Positions 39,847-59,187 of a stretch of DNA of 64,000 bases are shown here, in pieces. How positions within the stretch are numbered: the first letter of the stretch is position 1; each line of letters starts with the position of its first letter. The notes beneath the pieces were generated by a model, which saw only the letters and a program-made list of their open reading frames with translations, was not told the origin of the DNA and did not search any database. Origin of the DNA: Lactobacillus sp. CBA3605 (GTDB taxonomy: Bacteria; Bacillota; Bacilli; Lactobacillales; Lactobacillaceae); NCBI RefSeq assembly GCF_002970915.1, contig NZ_CP027190.1, forward strand, positions 930,001-994,000, read 5' to 3'. Made by a program: the position numbers and the translations under genes.

Positions 39847-39852
39847 TCGCAA

Positions 39853-42939: not shown

Positions 42940-43084
42940 TCTTTTCCCCACCTGAGCGTTTACTTTTATTGTGTGAATTTTATTCAACCTAAAGTTATTT
43001 TCACGCTTTTATCACGAACAATCAAGCGACTCAGATAACTTTATTCAGATAAACCGATTATTTTATCACTGCAGACAAACGTGA

Positions 43085-44747: not shown

Positions 44748-47276
44748 TTAAATATCATCAGGGTTCACAAGATCCATAGTATATTGCAACTTACTTATAG
44801 AATGATCTGTTAAATTTTCAATCACTAAATAATAAACTGAATTACGATTATAAGCCTGATCAATTAACATGCTTCGAACAGTTTGAATTCGTTCACCAAT
44901 TGCCTTTTTTTCGCTGTTAGCGTTAACCACTAATTGGCCTGAAATTTGGTGATCGTGATCATCAACAAAGTATAACTTGTAACTAGTTGGAACGACAGTG
45001 GCGCTAATTGGTTCAGGCTGCATAATACTTAAGGGTACTTCTAATGACGTTATACGCCGTTTAGTATTCACTAACTGTAACTCCGCCATTTGTGCATTAG
45101 ATTTGTCACTACTTGTTCGAATTTCCAACAATGGTACCAGCATTTCTTGTAATGAAGACCCTCCATGGACATAATTATCTCCACCGTTGGCCCGAAATAC
45201 ATTCGCCGTTGTTGGATAATAAACATAACGTTCATCTTCATTATTTAGCACTGCAGCTAGTGATTGCCGCTTAATACCAGGTTCTTCAACCTCACGCTTT
45301 GTAATTAAATAGCGTGGCGCTTTCCAATCGGCATCATCAGTAGGTAATTCAATCTTATCTACTGCCTTTAACTTCTCATCCCGATATAAATAGCCATGAT
45401 CAGCTGTGATATAAAGATGAGCAATGCTAGCACTCCGTAAGCGATTTACAAACCCACGCAATTCATTAATAGCTTCATTAGCGGCAGCAAAGGTCGCATC
45501 TTCAGTTCCTTGATTCTCTGCAGTTGTATCAATTTGATTATGATAAATATAAATAACATCCTGACCTGCAAATGCCGTTCGTAATTCATCTCTAGTCTTA
45601 CTCTTCAACTCTTTGAATCGGTAAGCTACACTACGTGGATTAGCTTGCTGTAAAATCAACTGTCTTTTTTTTACATTATCAGCTTCCATACCGTCAACAG
45701 CAACACGCCGTGTATTAGTCTGCAATGCCAACTGCCTATGTGGTAATAGTGCTGACATACCCATATAAGTTACTGATGGTAAACCAGTCACCAAATAATG
45801 CATGTTTAGCTCATTGATTTGATCATCTAACGAAAATTGATTTTGTAACTCTTTAGCAACTTCAAATCTTAAAGAATCCGAAATGATAACCACAATACGA
45901 TTATTTTCCATCCCAACATATTGTTTATAAAAATTACGTTGCAAGACTTTGGGTGCAAGTTCTTGATAGTTAAAGTTTCGATTCCACGTGACCGCGTATG
46001 TTGACAAATAATCCACATACCAGGCCTCAACTAAATTCTTTACAGGCTGAAAGTCCTCTGGAAAACCAGCTTGTTGGTATTCATAAACAAAATGGCGGTA
46101 ATCCGTATCTACCAAATACCCCGCTTCTAAGTAATCATTAATTAAACTACTCATATTGTCAGCTGGAGAAGTCCCTACCATTTTTTTTAGCCACCACGCA
46201 TTACACATCATTTGGTATAAATGATTAAAGTAAGGCGTTTGTCCGTAATGTGTCGTTTCTCGCTGCTTAGTTAACTGATCAATTTCAACGCCATTAACAG
46301 TCACATCACTAACATCTAATTTCAGTTGCGTCTGAATCCACAGCAGTATTCGTTTATCAAATTGCTTAAAAACATCTGCTCTTGCAATATCATCAATTTC
46401 TAACTGCCTAAATAGCTGTTTTTGATCAATAACTTGCCAGACAGCCGCTGCCACTTGTGCAAAGCTATCTTGATTATCTACTTTTTCACTAGCACTAAAT
46501 TGTTGCATAAAGGTTTGTACATTAGCAATTTTTCGACCCAGATTCCATTGTTGAACTTTAGCTGGGACTTTTAAGTCCATCTGTCTGAAAGCCATCGTGA
46601 CGTACAATGCCGTACTCAAATCCAACACTTGAGTTTCATTGGGATCACTTTCAAAATTAAATTGTTGATGCACCTTGTCCCAAAATTCAGATAAAACGCC
46701 ATATTTTTTAAATTCATTTAGGTATTTATTATTTACTAAATCGGCTTTTAAAATTGCCTTTAATACACCAAAAAAATCCACTAACGGTTGGTCTAATCGT
46801 GTAATCGTCGCCATAATGGCTACAGCAGGTTGACTATGGTAACTATCAATATCAAATTTAGCAAATCGTGCTCGTCGAACTTTATTAGCAAAGAAAGTCT
46901 TATGATCTTTTAAAAATCGATGTAAATTAGTCGGTAAGCCTAATTCTTGACGCAAAATTTCTTGAGCATCTGCTTTGAACGTTACCGAATACAACACCAT
47001 ATCACGTAAATGATTTTCTTCTATCGGTGGCTGCGGCTGTGGAGAATAAACTAAGAACTTCTCACTTTGATCTGCATTTAAAAGTCGTAGTTTAGTCTCT
47101 AATTGGTGCCCTGACATTAATTCAATAACGGTTGCAACATCTGCCAGTGCTGTCGTTAATTCTGAAATACTATCTTTAAATCCGCCGTCATCATCATACC
47201 AAAAAACAATTTGATGCCCGTCAGAAAAATCGTTTTTTAATGTTGTAACTACTTGTTTAATGTCCATATCAGCCAT
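44748..47276 (-). CDS. pglZ: BREX-1 system phosphatase PglZ
   Basis: 842 aa. The PglZ alkaline-phosphatase-like core is in the middle: VVIISDSLRFEVAKEL (metal/Ser pair) and YITADHGYLYRDEKL (the DHG metal site), near residues 475 and 640. The N-terminal half is helical. PglZ is essential in BREX and binds the methyltransferase; its phosphodiesterase/nuclease activity is known for some. Start ATG 47274-47276 follows GAGGTATTTTTA; an upstream start eight codons earlier lacks a site. The gene lies past a bidirectional terminator and its own promoter (47312-47340), so it is not dependent on the pglX mRNA. Part of its upstream region overlaps the opposing pglX copy. Confidence 0.92.
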   Translation of the reverse strand: MADMDIKQVVTTLKNDFSDGHQIVFWYDDDGGFKDSISELTTALADVATVIELMSGHQLETKLRLLNADQSEKFLVYSPQPQPPIEENHLRDMVLYSVTFKADAQEILRQELGLPTNLHRFLKDHKTFFANKVRRARFAKFDIDSYHSQPAVAIMATITRLDQPLVDFFGVLKAILKADLVNNKYLNEFKKYGVLSEFWDKVHQQFNFESDPNETQVLDLSTALYVTMAFRQMDLKVPAKVQQWNLGRKIANVQTFMQQFSASEKVDNQDSFAQVAAAVWQVIDQKQLFRQLEIDDIARADVFKQFDKRILLWIQTQLKLDVSDVTVNGVEIDQLTKQRETTHYGQTPYFNHLYQMMCNAWWLKKMVGTSPADNMSSLINDYLEAGYLVDTDYRHFVYEYQQAGFPEDFQPVKNLVEAWYVDYLSTYAVTWNRNFNYQELAPKVLQRNFYKQYVGMENNRIVVIISDSLRFEVAKELQNQFSLDDQINELNMHYLVTGLPSVTYMGMSALLPHRQLALQTNTRRVAVDGMEADNVKKRQLILQQANPRSVAYRFKELKSKTRDELRTAFAGQDVIYIYHNQIDTTAENQGTEDATFAAANEAINELRGFVNRLRSASIAHLYITADHGYLYRDEKLKAVDKIELPTDDADWKAPRYLITKREVEEPGIKRQSLAAVLNNEDERYVYYPTTANVFRANGGDNYVHGGSSLQEMLVPLLEIRTSSDKSNAQMAELQLVNTKRRITSLEVPLSIMQPEPISATVVPTSYKLYFVDDHDHQISGQLVVNANSEKKAIGERIQTVRSMLIDQAYNRNSVYYLVIENLTDHSISKLQYTMDLVNPDDI

Positions 47277-49491
47277 TAAAAATACCTCTTTTCCCATGAA
47301 TCCTTACGTATATCATACCCTATCAACCTTAAAATCTCACATTATAAAAAAATTATTATTGTTCACTCCAAACTATCATGATGGCGTTATTCAGCAATTA
47401 ATCACGACTATTCCAGTGGCTGATTTTGATGTTGCACAAGGCGGGCAAGTTGAAATCATTGGTTGGTTGTATCAGTACTATAATACGGAACCACATAATT
47501 ATGCAGTCAATATTACTGGTGGTGCTGTAACTAAAAATGAAATTCCAGCAGCAACTCAATTATTTACCACCGATTGGGTAGTTCGCTACATGGTGGATAA
47601 TTCATTAGGCCGATATTGGTTAGAACGGCACTCTGAAAGCAAACTTGCAACTAAGCTCAATTTTCTATTGCCTGGTAAAATAACTTCTATCTCAGATAAT
47701 GAGACATTGGAAAACATCCAATTAATTGATAATGCCATGGGGTCTGGTCATGTTTTAATCTATGCATTCGAAGTCTTTATGCGTATCTATTTGGAAGAAG
47801 GCTATAGTGCACGTGATGCCGCCAAATTAATTTTGAAAAATAATTTATTTGGTTTGGAGATTGATAAGCGTGCCTACCAACTAGCTTACTTTGCAGTGAT
47901 GATGAAAGCACGACAATACAATCGACGCGCATTGAGTGATGAAGATTTCGATCCTAATATCTTTGTTTTTGAAGACTCCAATACTGTGACGGCAGAATTT
48001 TTTGACGCTTTGGATGAAACACACCGTGTTGCTATTCATGAAATTGTTGAGTTATTTAGTAATGCTCGCGAATTGGGCTCAATTATTCAGCTACAACAAC
48101 AATATAATTGGAATGACTTAAACCAGGCAGTGAATTCAGTACCAACTGAAGATTTGGATATTTTTGGTATTCAACAGTCAAAAGAGCTTGTCTTGCGGAT
48201 CATTAAAATTGCACAAGTCATGAGTGAAAAATATGCTGTTGCAGTAACTAATCCACCATATTTAAATAAATTTGATCCCGAACTCAAAAAATATATTAAA
48301 CAAAATTTCAAAGACTATTCTGGCGACTTGTTTTCTGTTTTCATCTACAACAACATTAATATGGTTCAGCATGGCGGCTATTCGGCTTATATGACGCCCT
48401 TTGTCTGGATGTTTATCAAGACTTACGAAAAACTCAGAAAATATATTGTTGAACAAAAAGAAATCTCGAGTTTAGTTCAGATGGAGTATTCTGCTTTTGA
48501 AGAAGCGACTGTTCCAATTAACACCTTTATTCTAAAAAATGTGCCGAATAATGAGGAAGGTACTTATATTAAACTTTCTAGCTTTAAAGGCGGAATGGAT
48601 GTCCAACGGGATAAGGTTTTAGAAGCAATTCAAAATCCTGACAGCAGCTATCTTTATCGAACTAATCAAGCGAACTTTAGTAAGATTCCTGGGAGTCCGA
48701 TTGCTTACTGGGCAAGTGATAATTTAATTCATGATTTTGAAATAGGTACCCCAATGGATGACCTGGTAGATGCGCGACAGGGATTAGCAACAGCGGATAA
48801 TAAACGTTTTTTACGTATGTGGTATGAAGTTGATAACCAACGTATCAGTTTTCACTCTAAATCCATTGATGAATCGATTCAGTCAAACAAAAAATGGTTC
48901 CCTTACAATAAAGGGGGTGCCTATCGAAAATGGTATGGCAATTATGATTATGTGGTAAATTGGGAAAATGATGGTCAAGAAATTAAAAATTTTAAAGATG
49001 CCGGTGGAAAATTAAGATCACGTCCGCAAAATACAAACTATTATTTTCGTGAAGCGATTACTTGGTCTGATATCACTAGTGGCAACTTTAGTATCCGCTA
49101 TCGTTCACAAGGTAGCATATTCGATGTCGTGGGTAAATCTGCATTTTCACTTCATAGTTCATCCCAAGATTTATTAACATTATTAGGTCTAATGAATACA
49201 AAAGCTTCGGATTATATTTTTAAAATAATTAACCCGACCATACACTTACAAACAGGTGATTTTGCGTTATTTCCTGTCATAAAGAACACGATTTCATCTG
49301 ATCTGGCCAATAATTCCATTCAACTAGCCCGTACAGATTGGGATTCATTTGAAACATCTTGGGATTTCACTCGACATCTCCTCTTAGCGCACATCGCTGA
49401 TGATAACCTATCAGTATGGTATTATTTATTGGTATTGCCCAATTCACGTGCCAAAAATGTGCCAATATTTCAATCTAGGGGGCTCAAATAA
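47260..49491 (+). CDS. Silent 5'-truncated pglX copy (alternative BREX methyltransferase cassette)
   Basis: 743 codons, but only those from 47355 on (about residue 32) match PglX; the earlier ones read intergenic sequence antisense to pglZ and no ribosome site supports any start. It carries motif I NAMGSGH and NPPY (about 340, in YAVAVTNPPY), and the IR2 and IR3 matching blocks. After IR3 the frame departs and stops within 28 codons, so the C-terminal about 300 residues of PglX are missing. The stop TAA shares its last base with the recombinase ATG. In this orientation it is a store of alternative parts, not an expressed gene. Motif I has Asn where pglX has Pro (DNAMGSG vs DPAMGSG). Confidence 0.88.
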   Translation: MSISAIKNTSFPMNPYVYHTLSTLKSHIIKKLLLFTPNYHDGVIQQLITTIPVADFDVAQGGQVEIIGWLYQYYNTEPHNYAVNITGGAVTKNEIPAATQLFTTDWVVRYMVDNSLGRYWLERHSESKLATKLNFLLPGKITSISDNETLENIQLIDNAMGSGHVLIYAFEVFMRIYLEEGYSARDAAKLILKNNLFGLEIDKRAYQLAYFAVMMKARQYNRRALSDEDFDPNIFVFEDSNTVTAEFFDALDETHRVAIHEIVELFSNARELGSIIQLQQQYNWNDLNQAVNSVPTEDLDIFGIQQSKELVLRIIKIAQVMSEKYAVAVTNPPYLNKFDPELKKYIKQNFKDYSGDLFSVFIYNNINMVQHGGYSAYMTPFVWMFIKTYEKLRKYIVEQKEISSLVQMEYSAFEEATVPINTFILKNVPNNEEGTYIKLSSFKGGMDVQRDKVLEAIQNPDSSYLYRTNQANFSKIPGSPIAYWASDNLIHDFEIGTPMDDLVDARQGLATADNKRFLRMWYEVDNQRISFHSKSIDESIQSNKKWFPYNKGGAYRKWYGNYDYVVNWENDGQEIKNFKDAGGKLRSRPQNTNYYFREAITWSDITSGNFSIRYRSQGSIFDVVGKSAFSLHSSSQDLLTLLGLMNTKASDYIFKIINPTIHLQTGDFALFPVIKNTISSDLANNSIQLARTDWDSFETSWDFTRHLLLAHIADDNLSVWYYLLVLPNSRAKNVPIFQSRGLK
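47312..47340 (-). promoter_or_regulatory. Putative pglZ promoter outside the invertible segment
   Basis: GTGAGA (47335-47340), 17 bp, TATGAT (47312-47317), read on the minus strand, 36 bases before the pglZ ATG. It ends 15 bases before the start of the inverted repeat (47355), so pglZ expression would stay constant in every inversion state. Confidence 0.5.
47355..47492 (+). repeat. Inverted repeat IR1, left copy (138 bp)
   Basis: 137 of 138 bases match 53496-53633 in reverse complement; the difference is GCA against GCT. It codes in frame for LLFTPNYHDGV to YQYYNTE in both copies. Confidence 0.97.
48656..48689 (+). repeat. Inverted repeat IR2, left copy (34 bp identical)
   Basis: Identical to the reverse complement of 52248-52281; codes RTNQANFSKIP in both copies. 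Homology continues a little with mismatches. Confidence 0.95.
49335..49406 (+). repeat. Inverted repeat IR3, left copy (about 72 bp)
   Basis: Reverse-complement match to 51552-51623, with perfect 20-bp end 49387-49406. Codes DWDSFETSWDF..LLAHIADD. Sequence diverges directly afterwards. Confidence 0.93.
49448..49466 (+). repeat. Recombinase-flanking repeat, left (TTGGCAC pair, inverted)
   Basis: GTGCCAAAAATGTGCCAAT is, at 17 of 19 positions, the reverse complement of 50579-50597. Each copy contains two TTGGCAC heptamers 11 bp apart, the form of tyrosine recombinase arm sites. Confidence 0.7.
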
Positions 49492-50579
49492 TGGTTAGTT
49501 ATCAAAAACGAGGCAATGTTTGGCAATATGAGATTTCATATAAAGACAACGATGGTAAGTACAAAAAGCTTAGAAAGTCCGGTTTCACGCTAAAATCAGA
49601 CGCAATTCTAGCCGCTAACCAAATTCAATCTGAACACCCAAATCTCAAAACTGCCAAATCTGGTAGTGAAACTCTAGTCAATTACTATGAAAGGTGGATT
49701 AAGACGTATAAGTTTAATGCCGTATCACCCATCACTTACAATAAATACCAGAACACTGCCAAACATGCACATCATCTTTTCGGTAATTTGAAACTAAAAG
49801 ATCTAACTAAACTTATTTATCAAGAAAGTTTAAATACATTCGCTGAAAACCATGCTCGCAGAACAGTGTCTTGCTTGCACAAACAGTTACGTGCTTGTAT
49901 TCTTGAAGCCTTAGACGAACGAATCATAACAGTTGATCCTACTAGAAAAGCTGTAATTACCGGTCACGCTCTTCCTAAAACTGCCAGAACACTGAATTAC
50001 AATGATTGGTCCACTTTGCTTAGCCATCTTAATACCGATAATATTGCAGAATTAACAATCTATCTCGCCGCCGTAACTGGCATGCGCTACGCAGAAATCG
50101 TTGGGTTGACACCAGCTGATATCAATCTAATAATGGGTACCATTAATATTGACAAAACATGGGATTATAAATATAAAACTGGTTTTATGAAAACAAAAAC
50201 TAGTGCGTCTATTCGAAAAATAGCCATTGATCAAAATACAATTGTAAAGCTACGTCATTTCATGTTAGTACATGATTTATCACCAGAACGACCTTTATTC
50301 ATGAATAGTAAAGGTCATATTCTAGTAAGTGCTGAAATTAACACCATCTTAACTAATAAATTAGCGCTTCTTAACATACCTAGAATTACGTTCCACGGTC
50401 TACGACACACTCACGCATCAATTCTGCTCTATAAGGGTGTAAGCGTTCTTTCAGTTTCTAGAAGACTTGGACACAGTAACATCACAACTACTCAATCAAC
50501 CTATTTGCACATCATTAAAGAATTGGAATCTCAAGATAACAATAAGATTATATCCATTTTAAGTGACGCATTTGAATAA
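49491..50579 (+). CDS. Tyrosine recombinase of the pglX shuffling module
   Basis: 362 aa. The N-terminal arm-binding segment is WQYEISYKDNDGKYKKLRKSGF, next a SAM-like core-binding domain (about 58-150), then the catalytic domain: Arg in AVTGMRYAEIVGL (about 202), Lys in KTKTSASIRKI, HGLRHTHAS (about 302, His-x-x-Arg), His and Tyr in LGHSNITTTQSTYLH (about 325-345). All five are present. It overlaps the stop of the silent pglX copy by one base and has AGGGGG upstream. It is the probable enzyme for inversion across the pglX repeats. In the present orientation it faces against the brx operon. TTGGCAC repeats border it. Confidence 0.92.
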   Translation: MVSYQKRGNVWQYEISYKDNDGKYKKLRKSGFTLKSDAILAANQIQSEHPNLKTAKSGSETLVNYYERWIKTYKFNAVSPITYNKYQNTAKHAHHLFGNLKLKDLTKLIYQESLNTFAENHARRTVSCLHKQLRACILEALDERIITVDPTRKAVITGHALPKTARTLNYNDWSTLLSHLNTDNIAELTIYLAAVTGMRYAEIVGLTPADINLIMGTINIDKTWDYKYKTGFMKTKTSASIRKIAIDQNTIVKLRHFMLVHDLSPERPLFMNSKGHILVSAEINTILTNKLALLNIPRITFHGLRHTHASILLYKGVSVLSVSRRLGHSNITTTQSTYLHIIKELESQDNNKIISILSDAFE

Positions 50580-50597
50580 TTGGCACTTCTTTGGCAC
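50579..50597 (+). repeat. Recombinase-flanking repeat, right (TTGGCAC pair)
   Basis: ATTGGCACTTCTTTGGCAC, the inverted partner of 49448-49466. It begins at the recombinase stop codon. Confidence 0.7.
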
Positions 50598-50598
50598 A

Positions 50599-50632
50599 AA
50601 AAGGGATCCTCTCACTTGAGAAGATCCCTTTT
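50599..50632. terminator. Bidirectional terminator between recombinase and pglX
   Basis: AAAAGGGATC..TCTC (50599-50613) pairs with GAGA..GATCCCTTTT (50618-50632), one mismatch. It ends both the recombinase mRNA and the pglX mRNA, so pglZ cannot rely on the brx transcript. Confidence 0.9.
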
Positions 50633-50635
50633 AAG

Positions 50636-53600
50636 CTAAATCTTAGATAATACTTTTTCACCGTCCTGAAGCTTGCTATAGTTGACTGACACTCCGTCAT
50701 CTAAATCAAGGCTAATTTGTTCATTAGCAAGATGTTGAATGATCGGATCATAGCTTTTCAATTCATTAATTTGTTGATTGACATGCTTAATGTCACGTTC
50801 TAATTGTTTTTTACGTTTAGCCATTGATTCATCGGCACTTAATTGTTGTAATTGAGACAATCTGGTTTCATATTTACCTTGCAATGGATGTAAATAGTCC
50901 GTTCTAATCATCGCCAGCTCAGTATTGTCATACCGATGTAAATACATCAGTGCTTTGAACCCATTTTGACGACCACTAGAAAATTCCCAATAAATTGGCT
51001 TTTTTTGATAGACTTTTTTATGGTCTTTGAAGAAATCTTCGACAAAATAACGTCTAATAGCTGCTTCAGAATTTTCAGCCTTTTTGCCAACAATTCTGGC
51101 AATATAGTCCAAATTAGCTTGTAAGGTATCCCTGCCAAACACAACTTCTAAGAATTGTTTTAGCCGATTAATAATGTCTCGATCATCATTGAAATAATGT
51201 TCATCATTCAACATCATTAAATTATCTTGATTTGGCACAAATTTTTGATAATTATCACTATTCCACTCACCACCAGCAAAGATTAACCCTTCAACATCTA
51301 ACGAATAACGCCCAAACACGACGCCTACAAAGTATGATAGAAACGATTTAGTATCCCGTACTTCATCTGCCAATCGAACTGATACGTCCTTATCCGCTAC
51401 GTCAGGAGTTAATTCATCATTAAGCCCATATAAATCAATGAAAATTCGATTTAGTTCTTCCTCGTTAGCTTTAAGCTGATCAAATCGCTGTTGTGCTTCA
51501 ACTTTCCATAACCCAAATGCATTTTCTAACTTCCCGCCAACTTCTTTTTGCTTATCATCAGCGATGTGCGCCAGTAGTGGATGGCGAGCGAAATCCCAAG
51601 ATGTTTCGAATGAATCCCAATCTTTTTTTGCGTAAGAAATGCAACGTTTGCCTAAATTAGCCACTACATTCTTATTGTTGTCAAATATTACTGGAAGTGT
51701 ACCAATATCAGAAGTCTGAAAATTTAAAGTTGGATTTTTTAAAAGAAGATTTTTCCACATTATTTTTGAATTCATCAAGGAGAGTACCCAAAGAGTTGAT
51801 TTTTCGTTTGGAAAGATAGCACTTCCACCAGAATCGAAAATATGATTTTTAGGTAAAATTCTTGCAGAAAAACGGCTTGAAGTAATGGCAGACCATGTGA
51901 TCCCAGGTTGCATATAGTATCTTTCATTTCTTACAGATGCACTTAAACTATTTCCAAATTTCTTATATTTTTTTATTTCCAATCCATTGTTTTTCCAATT
52001 TACAAAGTAGCGTTCAAATCCGTACCATTTTCTATAGCCACCACCTTTAGCATATGGAAACCAAGTGGGGTGTGTATGCGAAATATAAATACTATTCTCA
52101 TAATTGACTTCTTGCCAAAAGAAAACAAATTTTTTATTGTTACTGGTAGTCATACCCACCATGGGACGATAAATATCAGTAAGCTTTTTATTGTCTTGAT
52201 AAATAGAACGCATATGTTCACTTATCCAGTATGCAATCGGGCTCCCCGGAATCTTACTAAAGTTCGCTTGATTAGTTCGATTATAACGATTACCAGCAAT
52301 TGGTACCGATTCAGGAATGCCAGTGGACACATCTTTTGTTTTTATTTGATGATAGGTTCCAATAAAACCTGGTAAAACAGTATTACGTAAAATGGTCACA
52401 GCAGTACCAAAAGCAATTCCCATAACGTTATTTTCCATATGCATTAAACTTGAAATCACATACTTGTTAAGTATATTTTTTCGCATTTTTTCAAAACTTG
52501 AAAGAAACATCCATGATTGCATAGTAACCATGGCATTAAATCCGTTTGATTTCAATGCTTGGTTCCACCGTTCAATAAACATCGAAAATAGATCTGATTT
52601 TGTGTCTGGATGATTTTTTTCAGCAAACTTTTTAAGCTTTTGTGACATTCGAGATGATCCCATATAAGGTGGATTAGTAATTACGACATCGTAGCTTTGC
52701 TTTAATAGCTGGGCAACCTGTAGCACCTTTTCAGCTTTTTCAATTAATGGAATTAATTCAAATGATAATTGTCGCTGGTTTAATTGACTGAGATTTTCAT
52801 TTAAAGCTGAATAGCCAACATTAGGTTCAGCTATTAGTGAACCAATTTCCTTTCCATCAGAAAAATCGATTAAAAGCTTCTTTAAAATTTTAGCATTATT
52901 ATTTTCAAGTTGAGTTAATAAAATATTGAAATTTTCATTAGCTTCACTAATACTTGGAATACCAAAGACATTGATACTTTTTATATTAGATAGTGCGCGA
53001 CGATCGTATTGTCGTGCCTTCATCATTATTGAAAAATAAGTCAGTTGAAAGGCTCGGTTATCAATATCTAAACCATTTAAGTTTTTTGTAATAATTTCTT
53101 TAACGGCATCTCTTTTAGAAAATCCCTCAGATTGATAAATAGTTATTAAAACTTCAAAAGCATAAACTAATATATGTCCAGACCCCATTGCTGGATCAAT
53201 TACTTTAATAGTAGCAAGAGTGTGGTTGCTAAGGGACTGATCGGTGATTACTATATTTTGAATTTCTTCAGATTGCGGCGCATCTTTTACATAGTAATTC
53301 CAATTAAAAGAATTTGCGATTTCGATTTCCGATCGATTATCACCAATACTAATTAAATGTTCAACCCATAATTTTCCTAATGAATTTTCTACCATATATT
53401 TGACGATCCAATCTGGGGTGAAAATTTGAGTTGCTGAAGCAATTTCTGTATTTCGAAATTTATGTGCTTTTGGAGTACTAATAACGTTATTTTTAGGTTC
53501 CGTATTATAGTACTGATACAACCAACCAATGATTTCAACTTGCCCGCCTTGAGCAACATCAAAATCAGCCACTGGAATAGTCGTGATTAATTGCTGAATA

Positions 53601-54217
53601 ACGCCATCATGATAGTTTGGAGTGAACAATAATTCAGCATAATCGTTAGTTTTTTCGAATAAATGTGGCAGATTTTTATATAATGCATTGGCTTGTTTGA
53701 TGAAAAGCATCCGATATAGGCGATCCATATCAGTTGTTAGCTCAGTTTCTTGTGCAACTTTTATCAAGTCCAACTCTTCATCAGTAAAATGTCCGAGATA
53801 AGGTTCCAGTACGATTGGATCAATCATAATATCAGGTTCATGCCGACCTTGACTACTCGATAATACGCGTGTTCGACTCGGAAGATAATCATTGACCTCC
53901 ATAAAGCGAATCGCAATCAAACGATTAAACCAAGTGTACGCAATTTCTTCTACCAAATCATTAAAAGCAGTTTTCAAATCGCTATTTGTCGCCCGTTGTA
54001 ACAATTCAGTAACTAATCGCTGTCGTTTTCCAATATCAGAACCAGTAATCGGATTACGATCATCAACATAGTATTCAATCTCTGAGGTGGAAGTTGCTAA
54101 CTTACTCGCAATTCCCTCCTCTGTAATACCTAGCATTGCTGCCTTTAGTTTAGTGTCTGCAATTAATTTTCGTCGCGCATTAATCGCAAAATTTTTGATA
54201 GCTGTTTTGTCCATCAT
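50636..54217 (-). CDS. pglX: BREX-1 adenine DNA methyltransferase PglX (expressed copy)
   Basis: 1193 aa. An N-terminal helical domain (1-195), IR1 block (195-241), the SAM domain with motif I DPAMGSGH (about 341-348) and the catalytic NPPY (about 515-518), IR2 block (about 646-657), a specificity region to about 865, IR3 block (about 865-889), and a C-terminal helical and mixed domain (890-1193). In BREX it adds m6A to one strand of a 6-7 base target and marks self. The operon order brxA-brxB-brxC-pglX is the usual one. Start ATG 54217 or the next Met, with GAAAGGAA. Different alleles are expected in sister cells. Confidence 0.95.
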   Translation of the reverse strand: MMDKTAIKNFAINARRKLIADTKLKAAMLGITEEGIASKLATSTSEIEYYVDDRNPITGSDIGKRQRLVTELLQRATNSDLKTAFNDLVEEIAYTWFNRLIAIRFMEVNDYLPSRTRVLSSSQGRHEPDIMIDPIVLEPYLGHFTDEELDLIKVAQETELTTDMDRLYRMLFIKQANALYKNLPHLFEKTNDYAELLFTPNYHDGVIQQLITTIPVADFDVAQGGQVEIIGWLYQYYNTEPKNNVISTPKAHKFRNTEIASATQIFTPDWIVKYMVENSLGKLWVEHLISIGDNRSEIEIANSFNWNYYVKDAPQSEEIQNIVITDQSLSNHTLATIKVIDPAMGSGHILVYAFEVLITIYQSEGFSKRDAVKEIITKNLNGLDIDNRAFQLTYFSIMMKARQYDRRALSNIKSINVFGIPSISEANENFNILLTQLENNNAKILKKLLIDFSDGKEIGSLIAEPNVGYSALNENLSQLNQRQLSFELIPLIEKAEKVLQVAQLLKQSYDVVITNPPYMGSSRMSQKLKKFAEKNHPDTKSDLFSMFIERWNQALKSNGFNAMVTMQSWMFLSSFEKMRKNILNKYVISSLMHMENNVMGIAFGTAVTILRNTVLPGFIGTYHQIKTKDVSTGIPESVPIAGNRYNRTNQANFSKIPGSPIAYWISEHMRSIYQDNKKLTDIYRPMVGMTTSNNKKFVFFWQEVNYENSIYISHTHPTWFPYAKGGGYRKWYGFERYFVNWKNNGLEIKKYKKFGNSLSASVRNERYYMQPGITWSAITSSRFSARILPKNHIFDSGGSAIFPNEKSTLWVLSLMNSKIMWKNLLLKNPTLNFQTSDIGTLPVIFDNNKNVVANLGKRCISYAKKDWDSFETSWDFARHPLLAHIADDKQKEVGGKLENAFGLWKVEAQQRFDQLKANEEELNRIFIDLYGLNDELTPDVADKDVSVRLADEVRDTKSFLSYFVGVVFGRYSLDVEGLIFAGGEWNSDNYQKFVPNQDNLMMLNDEHYFNDDRDIINRLKQFLEVVFGRDTLQANLDYIARIVGKKAENSEAAIRRYFVEDFFKDHKKVYQKKPIYWEFSSGRQNGFKALMYLHRYDNTELAMIRTDYLHPLQGKYETRLSQLQQLSADESMAKRKKQLERDIKHVNQQINELKSYDPIIQHLANEQISLDLDDGVSVNYSKLQDGEKVLSKI
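51552..51623 (-). repeat. Inverted repeat IR3, right copy
   Basis: Partner of 49335-49406; perfect over 51552-51571. Within the pglX reading frame at about residues 865-889. Confidence 0.93.
52248..52281 (-). repeat. Inverted repeat IR2, right copy
   Basis: Partner of 48656-48689, 34 of 34 bases. Confidence 0.95.
53496..53633 (-). repeat. Inverted repeat IR1, right copy
   Basis: Partner of 47355-47492, 137 of 138 bases. Outer border of the about 6.3-kb invertible segment. Confidence 0.97.
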
Positions 54218-54246: not shown

Positions 54247-57200
54247 TTATAAATTCAATTTAATCTGATCTACCTCAGCCAACTGAGCAACTAATGCAGC
54301 CCGTAATTGTGCCAATTGAGTGTCAATATCTTTATCACTAGTTAGTTGCCAAGTTCTTGAAACTGGCAAACTACTTAAACTAATATGCTTAACCATCGGT
54401 ATATTTGCTTTGGAACTATTGCCCGCAGTTGGCGTGGTTGCATTGGTCTCAATCTTATTGATTTTTGCTTCTTCCTGATCATTACTATCAGAAATTGCCT
54501 TTTCATTAGCCTGATTCTTAGCTGCTAATCGAGCGGCTTGTTGCTCATTTTCAGCGATAACTTGATCCGCCCTCGTTAGGAACCGATCTTTACGAACACC
54601 TGCTTTGGATTTTATAATAACCAACTCATCTAGGTTAGCAGCTACTTTGGCCTCAGCAATAAAGTGTTCAAAATCATGATTAATCTCAGTTTCAAGCGCT
54701 GTTGGTACTGCCTTTGCTTGAATATATGTTAATGTTGCCTGCCACTCATCATTCACAACTTGTTCAACATCCGTTTCAATCTTATCGAACTCATTATTGT
54801 AAACTTCATTAAAGGCTTCATTGTATCGTTTTAAATCATTGAGATTTCCTTGTGGTTTGTTGGAATCAACAATCGTCTTTATTTTGTGATAACTGTCAGG
54901 AACTTCATTACCGCTAATAAATGAACGTGACTTCTCATAAATATCGACTTTGGAAAGGGCATCATCCCAAATATGTTTTTGATCAGCACTATTATAAAAA
55001 TCCTCTAGGCCATCATCATACATATCATCATGCCAATCCAACAAGTCATTCTTCTTAGCGCTAATTAATGCATAAAATGCATCAGTATCCTGTCGACTTA
55101 ATAGTTGTTTCAGTAAAGCTTGTCCATTCTCTAAGATATTCCGTCCTGGATAACGATTAGATAGACCTAGTTGCCTAGTCAAAAGTTGATTTGCATTGTC
55201 AATCGTATGCCGTAACTCTTGAACTAGTGTGTCATCTTCATCATTATCAAAAAAGTTTTTATTGAAAACTTCCCGCGCAACTTCCTTTAAATCCCGTTTT
55301 TGTGTGTCAGAAACTGCCACTCTTGGGACTAGTTGCAACTTATCAGTATATTGCTTCATCGTAAAGAAATCAGCAATCTTGTTACTAGTTTTGTCTGAAG
55401 ATAGATTAATTTGTTCGCCGTTTACATAAGCTTTGATTTGAGCACCAACAAACAGTTTCGCAATTATCCATTTAACGTCCCAATCACGATAGCCATACGG
55501 TGCCGCGATAAATCGCTCTAAAAGAGCCTTATATGAGATTTTGCTAGGACTACGATAGTCCCGATTAATTCGATCTAGAACTGCTTGAATAGCTTGCTTA
55601 TTTTCATCCGTATCAACTAATTCAAAATCTGATTTAAATAATTTAACAATATCAGTTTCGGATTTAACGACGTCAATAAAACTCAAATTACGATAGACTT
55701 CATCAATTAAGTGAACTTGTGCCATACTTAACCGCTTTTCAAAACTTTTACTGTTGGCCTCTAACCGCTCATCACCAACGTAAATATCAGCATCTTCGAG
55801 AGCTGCTTCCAATTCACTTTGTGATTTTTTATTTAGCGTCTGCCGCTCTAATCTTTTTACATCAATTATTTTTTCAGAGCGAGCATCATCTTTACGATTA
55901 CTCGTGTCACGTAAAAATTTACCGATTTGTAAGGCTTGTCTCACATCATCAATATACTGTCCGTCTGCTGGCATATCAATAATAATTTGGGGATCAGTTG
56001 GTGATAATGCAATTCTTCGTAATTCCATTTCAACATGGTTAGTATCACTTTCTGGTGTATTAATCTTAATACTCATCGTATTATTCGCCACACCATGTGG
56101 ATGACCATCTACAAATTGATTAAATTTAAATGAATATTGACGATCTAGTTTAGGGTATACAAAACGACCATTTATTTGATTATTCGAAAATAAATATTCA
56201 CCAATTTCTCGAGAAATTTCATTACCATCAACACTTTGTTTGTTGATCTGTCGACTAACATCCTGTTCAGCATCCGTTAAAAACTCAAAGCCATTAGTGG
56301 TTTTCTCAACAACTTTCTGACTAATTAAAACGGTCATCGCATCTTTAACTTGCTTTTCCAATTTAATACGATCGGTATCAATTGAATCAATCATCAATGT
56401 TGTCACATTATTCAAAGTTGTTTTGAAATTAGCGAGATACTTTACCATGAATAAGGTCTCTAACACTTGAACTGCAAATGGGTGATCCTGATGTTCTGGA
56501 TTAATCACATCATTATCCAGTGCTCGCCTAATTACAATCATATGTGTATGATCTAAGAATTGATCTAAGCCTTGAAAAAAGAGACTAAATGGGACTAACG
56601 ATCGAACATCTTGCTGCTCTAAACGCTGCGCTGATTCTTGGAATACTGCCAACATCGACCGTTCCCCATTAGCTAAATGCTTCCCATCTGAGCCATTTTT
56701 TCGAATTGCCGTTAAGGTATCCTGTAATAAATTAAACTGATAAGGTACAAATGGATAAACATCAGCAAAATTTTGCGGACTTCGATAGTGATCTCGATCA
56801 ATATCTGCTTCAAAGGTGATCAAATTATTAATAGCATGTTGATCATTATCATAAATATTAGCCAAGCTCTGTTCACTTTCAACCGTCTTAGTTAATAATC
56901 GCTTATTAATGACTTCATCAACATTAGCGGATGACATCGCAATCCGGGTGTTAAACCGACCCTGGATTTTAGAAAAATCTTGTCCATTAATATTATCAGT
57001 TACCTGATCAATGGCTTGTTGACTGGTAACAATCACCCATGCCTTACCATGTGTATACGTTCCCAAATCCTCAACCACACTCTGTAAATTCAGCATCCGT
57101 TGTTGACTATTACCAATATATTGGCCAACTTCATCAACTAAAAAGACTAAGTGATAATTTGGATCTTGCTTAACAATATAATCATTAACTCGTTCTGCAA

Positions 57201-57930
57201 AATTCTCAACACTGATTGGATAATTAGTTTTAAGCTGTTCAATAAAACCAGTCGCATTTTCTTCAGTCATATAACCAATTGCAACCAAAGCGTCTTTAAT
57301 TGTTCCCTTTAGAAAAGCAAACCCATTTCGAGCATCAAGCCATGTCCGATGTTGCTTATCCAATTCCTGAAATTTTTCTTGAAATTCTGTGTATTGATCG
57401 TCTTGAATCAGATCCCGCTCCATGTCAGCAATCCAAAAATCAACCCCAATTAACCCCAATTGTTCATTGAACACTTGCAAGAAGACATTTAAAATGGCAT
57501 CTTTTTGTGATTTATTACCATTTTTAGCTTTTGAATCAATATTAAACAGAATAGTTTCGTTATGTATCGAAGCCGCCGCTTGTAAGTTTGTAATCGTATT
57601 AGGATTACTCAATTTTTGATCATCAAGAAAATAATCTATCGCTGGTTTACCGGCAACTTCACGATTTTCTAATAAATAAGCTAAAATTTTTAAAAAATGT
57701 GATTTCCCAGAACCAAAGAATCCAGAAATCCAAACACCCATCTTAGTTGTATCTTGATTGATGCTATCCGTATAGGCGCTAAAAAATTCTTGAAAATGTT
57801 GCTGTAACTCCTTGGTAACCACATACTCTTCCAATTCTTGCTTAATATTAGCGTCCTGTTCATCCCCAATGGTAATAACACCCTTAATATTACGATCAAT
57901 TGGCTTAGCAAATATCTCTTTTATTTTCAA
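54247..57930 (-). CDS. brxC: BREX-1 ATPase BrxC
   Basis: 1227 aa. P-loop GSGKSHF is near residue 73-80, within GVWISGFFGSGKSHFLKIL; Walker B is LVFLVDEVGQYIG (about 260-272). The DUF499-like AAA+ core is followed by long helical regions. The C-terminus has a Lys/Glu-rich coiled segment (about 1120-1180). BrxC is essential in BREX for defence and methylation. The start is TTG 57928-57930 giving MKIKEIFAKPIDRNIKG, because AGGAG lies 7 nt upstream; ATG 57945 would overlap that site. Next gene upstream is brxB, 33 bp away; pglX follows 30 bp later. Confidence 0.93.
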   Translation of the reverse strand: MKIKEIFAKPIDRNIKGVITIGDEQDANIKQELEEYVVTKELQQHFQEFFSAYTDSINQDTTKMGVWISGFFGSGKSHFLKILAYLLENREVAGKPAIDYFLDDQKLSNPNTITNLQAAASIHNETILFNIDSKAKNGNKSQKDAILNVFLQVFNEQLGLIGVDFWIADMERDLIQDDQYTEFQEKFQELDKQHRTWLDARNGFAFLKGTIKDALVAIGYMTEENATGFIEQLKTNYPISVENFAERVNDYIVKQDPNYHLVFLVDEVGQYIGNSQQRMLNLQSVVEDLGTYTHGKAWVIVTSQQAIDQVTDNINGQDFSKIQGRFNTRIAMSSANVDEVINKRLLTKTVESEQSLANIYDNDQHAINNLITFEADIDRDHYRSPQNFADVYPFVPYQFNLLQDTLTAIRKNGSDGKHLANGERSMLAVFQESAQRLEQQDVRSLVPFSLFFQGLDQFLDHTHMIVIRRALDNDVINPEHQDHPFAVQVLETLFMVKYLANFKTTLNNVTTLMIDSIDTDRIKLEKQVKDAMTVLISQKVVEKTTNGFEFLTDAEQDVSRQINKQSVDGNEISREIGEYLFSNNQINGRFVYPKLDRQYSFKFNQFVDGHPHGVANNTMSIKINTPESDTNHVEMELRRIALSPTDPQIIIDMPADGQYIDDVRQALQIGKFLRDTSNRKDDARSEKIIDVKRLERQTLNKKSQSELEAALEDADIYVGDERLEANSKSFEKRLSMAQVHLIDEVYRNLSFIDVVKSETDIVKLFKSDFELVDTDENKQAIQAVLDRINRDYRSPSKISYKALLERFIAAPYGYRDWDVKWIIAKLFVGAQIKAYVNGEQINLSSDKTSNKIADFFTMKQYTDKLQLVPRVAVSDTQKRDLKEVAREVFNKNFFDNDEDDTLVQELRHTIDNANQLLTRQLGLSNRYPGRNILENGQALLKQLLSRQDTDAFYALISAKKNDLLDWHDDMYDDGLEDFYNSADQKHIWDDALSKVDIYEKSRSFISGNEVPDSYHKIKTIVDSNKPQGNLNDLKRYNEAFNEVYNNEFDKIETDVEQVVNDEWQATLTYIQAKAVPTALETEINHDFEHFIAEAKVAANLDELVIIKSKAGVRKDRFLTRADQVIAENEQQAARLAAKNQANEKAISDSNDQEEAKINKIETNATTPTAGNSSKANIPMVKHISLSSLPVSRTWQLTSDKDIDTQLAQLRAALVAQLAEVDQIKLNL

Positions 57931-57962
57931 CTTATTTCTCCTCATATTCTGCGTCTATATTC

Positions 57963-58544
57963 CTAATTAATCTGAAATGCACGATAATAATTATCTTCTT
58001 TCACTTCACCGAACATGCTCAAGCTCAAATTATCGTATTTGCCGGGATAGAAAAGTACTACCGGTACTTGAGTAATAATTTGATGCATCGTATTCAAAAT
58101 CTTATGCGCCCGAATTAATGGATAGACCTCTCCAATTCCCGTTACAAAAACAACTATGTTATCCGTGGAAACCAATTTTTCTTCCATATATGTCACAAAC
58201 ATATTTTCAGAATCAGTCATACCTAAAGCATTATTTAGCTGTTCTACTAAGTAGTCGAGTCCTTCATCCGCTTCCATCGCAATAACATCATCTTTAATTC
58301 CCATTTGAGTTAAAAGATCCCACATAATATGGTAAACATTAAATTCAATAATATCGATGCCTACTGTGGCCTGATTCAATTGATGCTTCATATTGTCAAT
58401 CTCATCTCGTACTAAAAGCTTATCCTGAGGGGCATATCCTAAAATATAATAGGATACTTCATTTGAAAGACCACGACTGTGCTGAAAATCCTGGCTAGTG
58501 ATTTTTTCGCGTAAACTTTTTAACTTCATTCTCGTATCTGTCAT
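57963..58544 (-). CDS. brxB: BREX-1 protein BrxB
   Basis: 193 aa DUF1788 protein, opening MTDTRMKLKSLREKITS. It has alternating strand-helix segments and NIVVFVTGIGEVYPLIRAHKIL followed by VPVVLFYPGKYDNLSLSMFGE, a conserved stretch of the family. Exact biochemical role unknown; it is needed for defence and interacts with BrxC or PglZ in studied systems. ATG with GGGGAG. It begins one base after the brxA stop. Confidence 0.9.
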   Translation of the reverse strand: MTDTRMKLKSLREKITSQDFQHSRGLSNEVSYYILGYAPQDKLLVRDEIDNMKHQLNQATVGIDIIEFNVYHIMWDLLTQMGIKDDVIAMEADEGLDYLVEQLNNALGMTDSENMFVTYMEEKLVSTDNIVVFVTGIGEVYPLIRAHKILNTMHQIITQVPVVLFYPGKYDNLSLSMFGEVKEDNYYRAFQIN

Positions 58545-58545
58545 T

Positions 58546-59139
58546 TTATCTCCCCAATAGTACAGCTAGTATCTGATGTTCATCTTTATTTCGTAACATG
58601 TCCTCTAAATCAAGATCTAATAAGGGACGACTTACTTGGTCAAAACTCCCTTGATTTTTCATCAGCCCTGCTTCACGGACAAAGGTTTTAAAAACACCCA
58701 TTAATCGCGTAATTGTTTCATCAGTCCAACTCGCAATTTGCTGATTTTCAGCCTGTTTGCGACTAAAAAAAGCTTCAATTTCATAATCATGTAACTCTGT
58801 ATCTCCGAGTACTAATTCATCACGATAAACCTCATACATAAACTCTTCAAAAAGTTGATTTGATTTCATAACAGTTATCAAATCAATTAACCGTTGATTT
58901 GCGATATCAAGTCGTGGAAAAAGACTCATATAGTCTTGATCTAGACTATCGATTCGATGTGTTATTATTTTAAGCATGTCTTGAATACGAGCAACTGTAC
59001 TCTGTTTAAAGATATTGTCTTTAATGGCTTGGCTATTAATTTCGCCTTGAGTTAAACCCTTATTTAACAATTCAATATACTGCTGAAACTCATTAAACCA
59101 AAAAGAATGTGAAACTATTGCAGCACTATATTTTATCAT
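58546..59139 (-). CDS. brxA: BREX-1 protein BrxA
   Basis: 197 aa DUF1819 protein starting MIKYSAAIVSHSFWFNEFQQYIELL. BrxA is a small helical DNA-binding protein that resembles NusB-like folds in structural studies of relatives. The ATG at 59137-59139 is favoured over GTG 59145, since AGGAAGTG is 9 nt before the former and overlaps the latter. It is the first gene of the brxA-B-C-pglX transcript. Confidence 0.9.
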   Translation of the reverse strand: MIKYSAAIVSHSFWFNEFQQYIELLNKGLTQGEINSQAIKDNIFKQSTVARIQDMLKIITHRIDSLDQDYMSLFPRLDIANQRLIDLITVMKSNQLFEEFMYEVYRDELVLGDTELHDYEIEAFFSRKQAENQQIASWTDETITRLMGVFKTFVREAGLMKNQGSFDQVSRPLLDLDLEDMLRNKDEHQILAVLLGR

Positions 59140-59187
59140 TTGCACTCACTTCCTAATTTCAGCGTAAATAATCACGACATATTGCCC

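Follow-up and report, generated by a model that had tools for sequence, protein, structure and literature searches.

The closest described systems to the locus treated here are the phase-variable pglX genes of lactobacilli, the primary paper on which, for the integrase-linked pglX of Lacticaseibacillus rhamnosus GG, is reportedly that of Goldfarb in 2015. In L. rhamnosus LRHMDP2 and LRHMDP3 a PglX of 1198 amino acids (aa) and a partial PglX of 743 aa are reported with an integrase between them, an arrangement called analogous to that of GG, and the heterogeneity of PglX in this species has been linked to phase variation (PMC7513527). The present work concerns a stretch of 64,000 nt of Lactobacillus sp. 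CBA3605 (assembly GCF_002970915.1, contig NZ_CP027190.1, positions 930,001–994,000 of the forward strand), hereafter the window, which holds a bacteriophage exclusion (BREX) locus where pglX (minus strand) and a truncated copy of it (plus strand) oppose each other with a tyrosine recombinase between them, and where three pairs of inverted repeats (IR1, IR2 and IR3) make it probable that the BREX methyltransferase is here shuffled by DNA inversion at three sites.

With the L. rhamnosus inverton this locus shares a full-length and a truncated pglX in opposite orientation around an integrase, and shared inverted repeats; however, the excerpted description of that inverton contains neither three pairs of border sites, nor a separate exchange of the methyltransferase domain (MTD) and the target recognition domain (TRD), nor core sequences, nor an overlap of the integrase start with the stop of the OFF forms, all of which are found or predicted here, and L. 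rhamnosus carries BrxL there (PMC7513527), while none was found in CBA3605. The pneumococcal hsdS systems (SpnIII/Spn556II, with PsrA) are alike in their three IR pairs, their local tyrosine recombinase and the several specificities drawn from silent copies (PMC4948785, PMC7394358), but what they shuffle is a separate specificity subunit, HsdS, whereas here it would be PglX, a single polypeptide that includes the catalytic domain and that odd numbers of inversions would truncate. Type 1 BREX of E. coli, Salmonella and L. casei Zhang has the same BrxA, BrxB, BrxC, PglX and PglZ, with a PglX alignable to the solved structures, but CBA3605 differs in its duplicated, recombinase-linked pglX and in that no brxL was found. 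In the Rci shufflon one recombinase acts on several invertible sites to give alternative protein ends, the sites being near-identical short repeats, whereas the three cores described below differ centrally, and each would be expected to pair with its own partner. Inversion of pglX in lactobacilli is known, as an original prediction made for this stretch from its letters alone had noted, and what is new is the three-site domain exchange; among the matches listed in a search of the open-access literature on BREX or pglX inversion and phase variation, no multi-site pglX domain exchange was described, an earlier description elsewhere being possible.

The anatomy is as the original prediction had it. 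Coordinates and profile matches agree with its expressed pglX and 5′-truncated copy facing each other around a recombinase; exact-repeat searches and translations agree with its in-frame IR1 (138 bp, one mismatch), IR2 (34 bp) and IR3 (about 72 bp with a perfect 20-bp end); and the AMGSGH and NPPY motifs are read in both of the blocks, A and A′, to which it assigned the catalytic motifs, these being followed by B or B′ and then by the C-terminal part C or the short tail t (Table 1). IR1 is made up of two exact runs, 47355–47435/53553–53633 (81 bp) and 47437–47492/53496–53551 (56 bp), and IR3, at 89% over 72 bp, includes three exact runs (15, 18 and 20 bp), of which the 20-bp one lies at 49387–49406/51552–51571. 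A repeat finder gave arms of 145 nt (97%), 64 nt (92%) and 72 nt (89%) for the three, besides two weaker pairs, one of 212 nt at 72% within block A and one of 21 nt at 81%. The reading frame of all three blocks is identical in both copies, which outside the repeats have a nucleotide identity of 52% in A and 52% in B, and against such a background common descent by itself would not be expected to leave the exact 34 bp of IR2 (0.52^34, or about 2e-10 for each position). A PglX search of the genome matched just these two copies. The complete one shares its strand with brxC and begins 29 bp past it, and because of that position it is called expressed, presumptively; the silent cassette proper begins at IR1 (47355), the start of its open reading frame (ORF) being an antisense overlap with pglZ. 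The integrase between the copies, with the lambda-type set of arm-binding, SAM-like and catalytic domains and with R199, H302 and R305 among the positions at least 97% conserved in 47 sequences, is likely the invertase of the locus.

The repeats fall at or close to the points where the protein divides. The PglX of the window can be aligned over most of its length with the solved E. coli BrxX and Salmonella PglX; the limits published for BrxX are an N-terminal domain (NTD) at 1–210, the MTD at 211–650, a hinge at 638–675 and the TRD at 651–837 (PMC11842806), and the Salmonella TRD spans 662–849 (PMC11341690). Read by hand from the alignment, IR1 corresponds to about residues 183–224 of BrxX, at the NTD/MTD border; the IR2 core to about 640–648, within the hinge between MTD and TRD; and IR3 to about 854–874, that is, 16–36 residues into the C-terminal domain (CTD). 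On this alignment each repeat is at, or close to, one border between domains (NTD/methyltransferase, methyltransferase/TRD and TRD/CTD, in order), so that block A is the methyltransferase domain and block B holds the TRD. The separate exchange of catalysis and specificity that had been predicted agrees with these published domains and with the comparison of relatives, a comparative and not a read-based footing.

PglX was matched in 53 of 397 genomes of the family and 36 of 395 of the order, at most two candidates being scored per genome (14/35, 11/30 and 3/3 genomes in three genera), and 60 genome stretches and six plasmid regions were compared; in what follows G000 is the window's own genome, E the copy joined to the C-terminal part, in OFF loci too, and S the silent copy. 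Many second pglX copies in the family span approximately residues 196 to 888, which is to say IR1 to IR3, and among the matches listed for order genomes outside the family there is no second copy of this kind, G656 having an alternative architecture. The identity profile covers 29 complete loci, including two near-duplicates (Lbrev1.2108 and G297) that were left out of the analyses of switch points, core sequences, pair lists, core counts, and cassette openness and nonsynonymous to synonymous rate ratios (dN/dS). Nucleotide identity within as compared with between loci is 0.94/0.72 at IR1, 0.88/0.78 at IR2 and 0.76/0.64 at IR3, and 0.50/0.53 in A and 0.56/0.52 in B; codon choice at conserved residues gives 0.89 vs 0.57, 0.86 vs 0.63 and 0.74 vs 0.55 for the repeats, and 0.40 vs 0.40 and 0.50 vs 0.43 for the two blocks. 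The silent copy of the same locus is the best match of E at IR1 in 22 of 29 loci, in A in one and in B in seven. Between species, same-codon conservation (30 loci, omitting LplSRCM, LplK25, G213 and G107 and keeping the four alternative-architecture loci) is 0.53, 0.61 and 0.54 at IR1, IR2 and IR3, and 0.43, 0.41, 0.43 and 0.45 in the N-terminus, A, B and C, while in eight loci that have no silent copy on the stretch the repeats are not raised (0.53, 0.53 and 0.57 vs 0.54, 0.49, 0.47 and 0.55 in the same four parts). The best 8-residue codon windows start in 22 of 25 cases at residues 640–650, 882–889 or 191–197, the rest being at 859, 860 and 1005.

Within each repeat a core is conserved at the level of DNA. 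With up to three mismatches, core1, core2 and core3 are present in 60/65, 55/68 and 67/68 of the paired copies, in 2/6, 0/6 and 1/6 of the loci without this recombinase at pglX, and in 0/4, 0/8 and 0/8 of the copies accompanied by a 45–48% identical integrase, random windows passing in 1.0%, 0.5% and 5.0% of cases; the comparison of core sequences also omits G081, G139, G156, G221, G193 and G211. In recombinase-free loci the core1 motif is encoded with other codons. Compared in pairs, the three cores always align best in one and the same register (P over registers 0.046, 0.022 and 0.068; 49/53, 48/49 and 59/64 rows, anchored on the motif, those without an anchor being dropped), and the second-best register is each time that of the reverse complement displaced by one position, as an imperfect palindrome would give. 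They share the half-sites ATYG and CKAW, some 11 bp apart, and differ in their central sequences, for which reason each site would be expected to recombine just with its own partner. Mere protein conservation at IR2 and IR3 was rejected on account of these codon-level cores and of the other or absent core sequences in recombinase-free loci. It is likewise very unlikely that the integrase acts at IR1 only, as in a simple inversion switch, with IR2 and IR3 as remnants or conserved motifs of the protein that have no part in it: no repeat is longer or more uniform than IR1 (mean 0.94), and the protein motifs of IR2 and IR3 occur also in the solved BrxX and PglX, but loci without the recombinase use other codons at core1 and lack core2 and most core3 sequences, and such a switch leaves unexplained the cassettes that start at the IR2 core, the short tracts of G363 and the G322/G349 exchange, to which we now turn.

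A comparison of related genomes for recombinant junctions, which had been proposed with the original prediction, gives signs of use not at IR1 alone but also at IR2 and IR3. The plasmids of L. brevis TMW 1.2111 and L. plantarum K25 have similar flanks (N-terminus 0.99, C 0.94), and the expressed A of one is the silent A of the other (0.94–1.00, in both directions), while B differs. Between L. plantarum K25 and SRCM103426 the expressed A is related (0.88, from 1.00 dropping to 0.69 along the block), with B at 0.53 and C at 0.95; and within one genus G322_E and G349_S have the same B (0.95) on opposite A classes (A 0.49), the switch falling at residue 647. The relative G019 has proteins 99% (BrxC), 98.8% (PglZ) and 98% (integrase) identical to those of the window, whose silent A′ corresponds to the expressed A of G019 (0.96–0.97) and whose expressed A has no close partner there (0.46–0.63). 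Altogether 173 identity switch points were located, 98 at IR1, 16 at IR2 and 21 at IR3, in pairs that are not independent. As a separate observation, in the BREX loci of G267 and G206, which have no recombinase, the TRD has been exchanged (A 0.93, B 0.53, C 0.95), and interspecies replacement of the TRD was accordingly downgraded as proof of the use of IR2.

The borders of the cassettes add to this record. In G004, G171, G193, G211 and G240 the second copy spans only residues 647–888 or thereabouts, adjoins pglZ and begins near the IR2 core; the silent cassettes of G171, G211 and G240 begin at the same core2 base, with an exact shared tract at the IR2 core of 16 bp (inside core2), 19 bp and 78 bp, respectively, and the exact matches between the two copies of G363 are 24 bp long at IR2 and 17 bp long at IR3. 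These tracts bear on the possibility that the integrase serves IR1 and that IR2 and IR3 recombine through RecA-dependent homologous recombination or another recombinase, as in pneumococcal hsdS, where PsrA is needed for IR1 and not for IR2 or IR3 (PMC4948785). The long IR2 tract of loci such as G240 would suit this mechanism, which we regard as unlikely, although less so than the other alternatives, since the exact tracts in G363, G171 and G211 are so short, and since all three cores are conserved at the codon level, share a single best register and co-occur with this integrase; that the enzyme would act at IR2 and IR3 too is the likelier reading. G722 was dropped as a candidate short cassette, both of its copies stopping at contig ends. 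Draft contigs of G041, G325, G722, G726 and G004 end at or near IR1 or IR2, as would be expected if assemblers meet repeats or mixed junctions.

Most silent copies are preserved as coding sequence. Although promoterless, 25 of 29 silent cassettes have an uninterrupted reading frame between core1 and core3, and dN/dS between related A blocks is 0.06–0.32 in 13 comparisons, the four of silent with silent giving 0.06, 0.08, 0.12 and 0.19. Decay of the silent copy was rejected on these figures, and the wider idea of an assembly artefact or a decayed, functionless duplicate, to which the four cassettes with frameshifts or stops could be attached, is extremely improbable, the more so because numerous separate assemblies have this architecture, L. 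brevis and L. plantarum plasmid records among them. The tree of A blocks separates one clade (alpha, support 0.90) from the rest, and of the 31 loci whose two A blocks could both be assigned, 27 combine one alpha and one non-alpha block (25/29 without the two near-duplicates), three being non-alpha/non-alpha and one alpha/alpha; random pairing would give such mixing with P 5e-5, a figure that ignores relatedness. In the 27 mixed loci alpha is the expressed class 14 times and the silent one 13 times. The B tree has no two-way split of this kind among the rows listed, and the TRDs mix more freely than the two A classes, which are kept side by side.

How the parts could work together may be proposed as follows. 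The integrase, or less likely general recombination, would invert the DNA between the two copies of IR1, IR2 or IR3, each inversion shifting one domain border, so that the whole would be a 2x2x2 switch: the expressed N-terminus would be joined (i) to A or A′, (ii) to B or B′, and (iii) finally to the C-terminal domain (ON) or to the short tail (OFF). An even number of inversions would give a full-length enzyme, and an odd number a PglX that lacks its C-terminal domain and behind which the integrase comes into line, the integrase ATG overlapping the pglX stop. Inversion of the window in silico yields four ON forms of 1193, 1176, 1183 and 1200 aa and four OFF forms of 906, 923, 916 and 899 aa, in keeping with the four full-length enzymes reached by paired inversions, and the truncated forms of about 906 aa, that had been foreseen; this overlap of integrase ATG and pglX stop recurs in each of the simulated truncated forms, a point that, like the lack of a detected brxL, goes beyond the original prediction. 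Orientation was tallied over 51 loci, the window among them, and was unreadable in 14; apart from L. salivarius H1 and the four loci of alternative architecture, the others comprise 30 ON loci and two OFF loci (G066 and G107), the latter with N-terminus and C-terminus on opposite strands and the integrase in line with the N-terminus. The integrase starts 94–160 nt past core3 in the 38 loci with a core3 upstream (8/46 have none by that pattern), and a tight coupling of tail stop and integrase start was rejected as a universal feature, the distance being at most 6 nt in 16 of the 38 and greater in 22. The likely effect would be a population mixing four PglX enzymes and OFF cells, CBA3605 presumably still switching, in which the target sites, the methylome and, where restriction is present, the specificity of BREX would vary between siblings.

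A fuller model, which is offered tentatively and falls somewhat short of probable, is that one integrase recognizes alike half-sites (ATYG ... CKAW around 11 bp), that each site pairs with its own partner only and exchanges domains in frame, and that the integrase lies in the BREX operon only in the OFF states, through the TAATG junction, so that OFF cells might make more integrase and flip back; BrxL-less loci would then be mainly a four-state switch of the methylome and not a switch of defence.

Several observations weigh against the shuffler. The relatives are non-independent samples; 38 of the 173 switch points lie outside the IR windows, and those at IR1 coincide for the most part with the 3′ limit of the conserved block and not with core1. 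At IR2 the best match of E is the silent copy of the same locus in just 14 of 29 loci, and at IR3 in just 12, and the copies of G363 also share 35 and 16 bp inside A at contig ends. The cores were defined on the same loci in which they are counted, their common motif is modest at the P values given above for rows anchored on it, and in its reduced form it is not enriched genome-wide (376 vs 365 in the control). The silent cassettes of G019, G072, G132 and G269 are the broken ones, the pneumococcal precedent for a recombinase needed at IR1 alone counts on the same side, and the exchange in G267/G206 means that replacement of B alone is no proof that IR2 or IR3 was used. This last, together with the single configuration in which CBA3605 has been seen (one assembly), would also suit a static pair of paralogues whose three motifs are kept alike by gene conversion, with occasional horizontal replacement of the TRD. 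However, a static pair does not account for the two relatives in the OFF state, for alpha being expressed about as often as it is silent, or for the A blocks swapped between plasmids with closely similar flanks, and it is highly improbable. The three-site shuffler remains the probable explanation.

The window contains together the Type 1 BREX set brxA, brxB, brxC, pglX and pglZ. In the genomes G000 and G019 no brxL was found with TIGR02688, a search that matched G258 and G361, and a BrxL protein query of the genome, which had no positive control of its own, was likewise empty; from the five genes and no detected brxL, the locus is named BrxL-less BREX-1-like. BrxL has been reported in 74% of canonical systems (PMC12839542). 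By TIGR02688, brxL is present in 22 of 41 genomes with a paired or cassette pglX and was not found in 19, G000 included (in G017, G325 and G726 among the 41 the integrase was not seen on the fetched contigs); it was not found in four recombinase-free genomes and is present in four alternative-architecture genomes, and it is annotated in the shuffler plasmids of L. brevis TMW 1.2108 and L. plantarum. According to a review, brxL is needed only for restriction where this was tested (PMC12707154), so that the locus of CBA3605 may act mainly on the methylome.

Table 1. Features of the BREX locus, numbered from the first base of the window
Feature	Position	Strand	Evidence
pglX/brxX, present ON arrangement (N-terminus, A, B, C), 1193 aa	50636..54217	-	Pfam Eco57I/N6_Mtase; PADLOC PglX 1353.8 bits
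Silent 5′-truncated pglX cassette (A′, B′, tail t), 743 aa	47260..49491	+	PglX match; homology to PglX residues 196-888
Tyrosine recombinase, 362 aa	49491..50579	+	Arm-DNA-bind_4, Phage_int_SAM_3, Phage_integrase domains
IR1, silent copy, 138 bp, 1 mismatch; core1 at 5′ edge, from 47356	47355..47492	+	
IR1, expressed copy; core1 from 53632	53496..53633	-	
IR2, silent copy, 34 bp exact; includes core2	48656..48689	+	
IR2, expressed copy; corresponds to methyltransferase domain/TRD hinge	52248..52281	-	
IR3, silent copy; perfect 20-bp end 49387-49406 has core3	49335..49406	+	
IR3, expressed copy; perfect 20-bp end 51552-51571 has core3	51552..51623	-	
Block A, expressed: methyltransferase domain, non-alpha class, AMGSGH and NPPY motifs	52282..53495	-	
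Block A′, silent: methyltransferase domain, alpha class, AMGSGH and NPPY motifs	47493..48655	+	
Block B, expressed: covers TRD	51572..52247	-	mapping to BrxX TRD
Block B′, silent: alternative TRD	48690..49386	+	
TAATG: silent-tail stop overlapping integrase start codon; truncated-pglX/integrase junction in all four simulated OFF forms	49489..49493	+	
pglZ	44748..47297	-	profile matches
brxC	54247..57945	-	profile matches
brxB	57963..58544	-	profile matches
brxA	58546..59145	-	profile matches

Elsewhere in the window, at 36868–39852 and 40489–42987 (minus strand), two large proteins are cell-surface-like (LPxTG-like ends), one of them with a repeated unit of the EEPDYEKPVPPTIDVDLPTVTP type. A different pglX shuffler was met in G081 (L057), G139 (L060), G156 (L062), G221 (L066) and G656 (L110): its integrase is about 314–328 aa long where listed (the ORFs of G221 are not) and 45–48% identical to the present one, its silent cassette starts from about residue 330, with an extra TRD fragment in some loci, a separate ORF of 311 aa for the C-terminal domain lies past the integrase, and its repeats are unlike the present cores. 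A scan of a collection of genome contigs with the integrase gave one locus, with an integrase 41% identical and no BREX match, and a scan of viral contigs gave no match. A nucleotide search of plasmids with the window returned one match of 82 query bases, the protein search led to the lactobacillus plasmids, and a further nucleotide search of plasmids returned only the four already found.

Published strain comparisons may be reread in this light. In L. rhamnosus GG KCTC 5033, as compared with ATCC 53103, the short pglX is reported to be changed at three offsets, with C to T at 71 and 83 and G to A at 74, and the long pglX, followed along the gene, at two, with T to C at 656 and A to G at 659, while evolved lines show paired changes at offsets 1374 and 1905; in the excerpted text the authors take these as mutations (PMC6256098). 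The changes at 71 and 74 are reciprocal to those at 656 and 659 and, if the N-terminus is as long there as here, would fall at one place in IR1, that at 83 being partnerless, and the positions 1374 and 1905 would lie near the expected IR2, given the lengths of the A blocks; we read both sets as exchange by inversion. In L. paracasei Zhang, inactivation of pglX, and not that of a second methyltransferase, removed N6-methyladenine (6mA) (PMC10164179).

If the three-site shuffler is true, the catalytic and recognition domains of a single-chain methyltransferase would be recombined independently by programmed inversion, and the exchange points, at or near the natural borders of the domains, would provide a natural guide for cutting and rejoining BrxX. 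It would also give a reason for the variability of pglX in lactobacilli, and would make the variation of BREX specificity or of the methylome within a clone directly testable.

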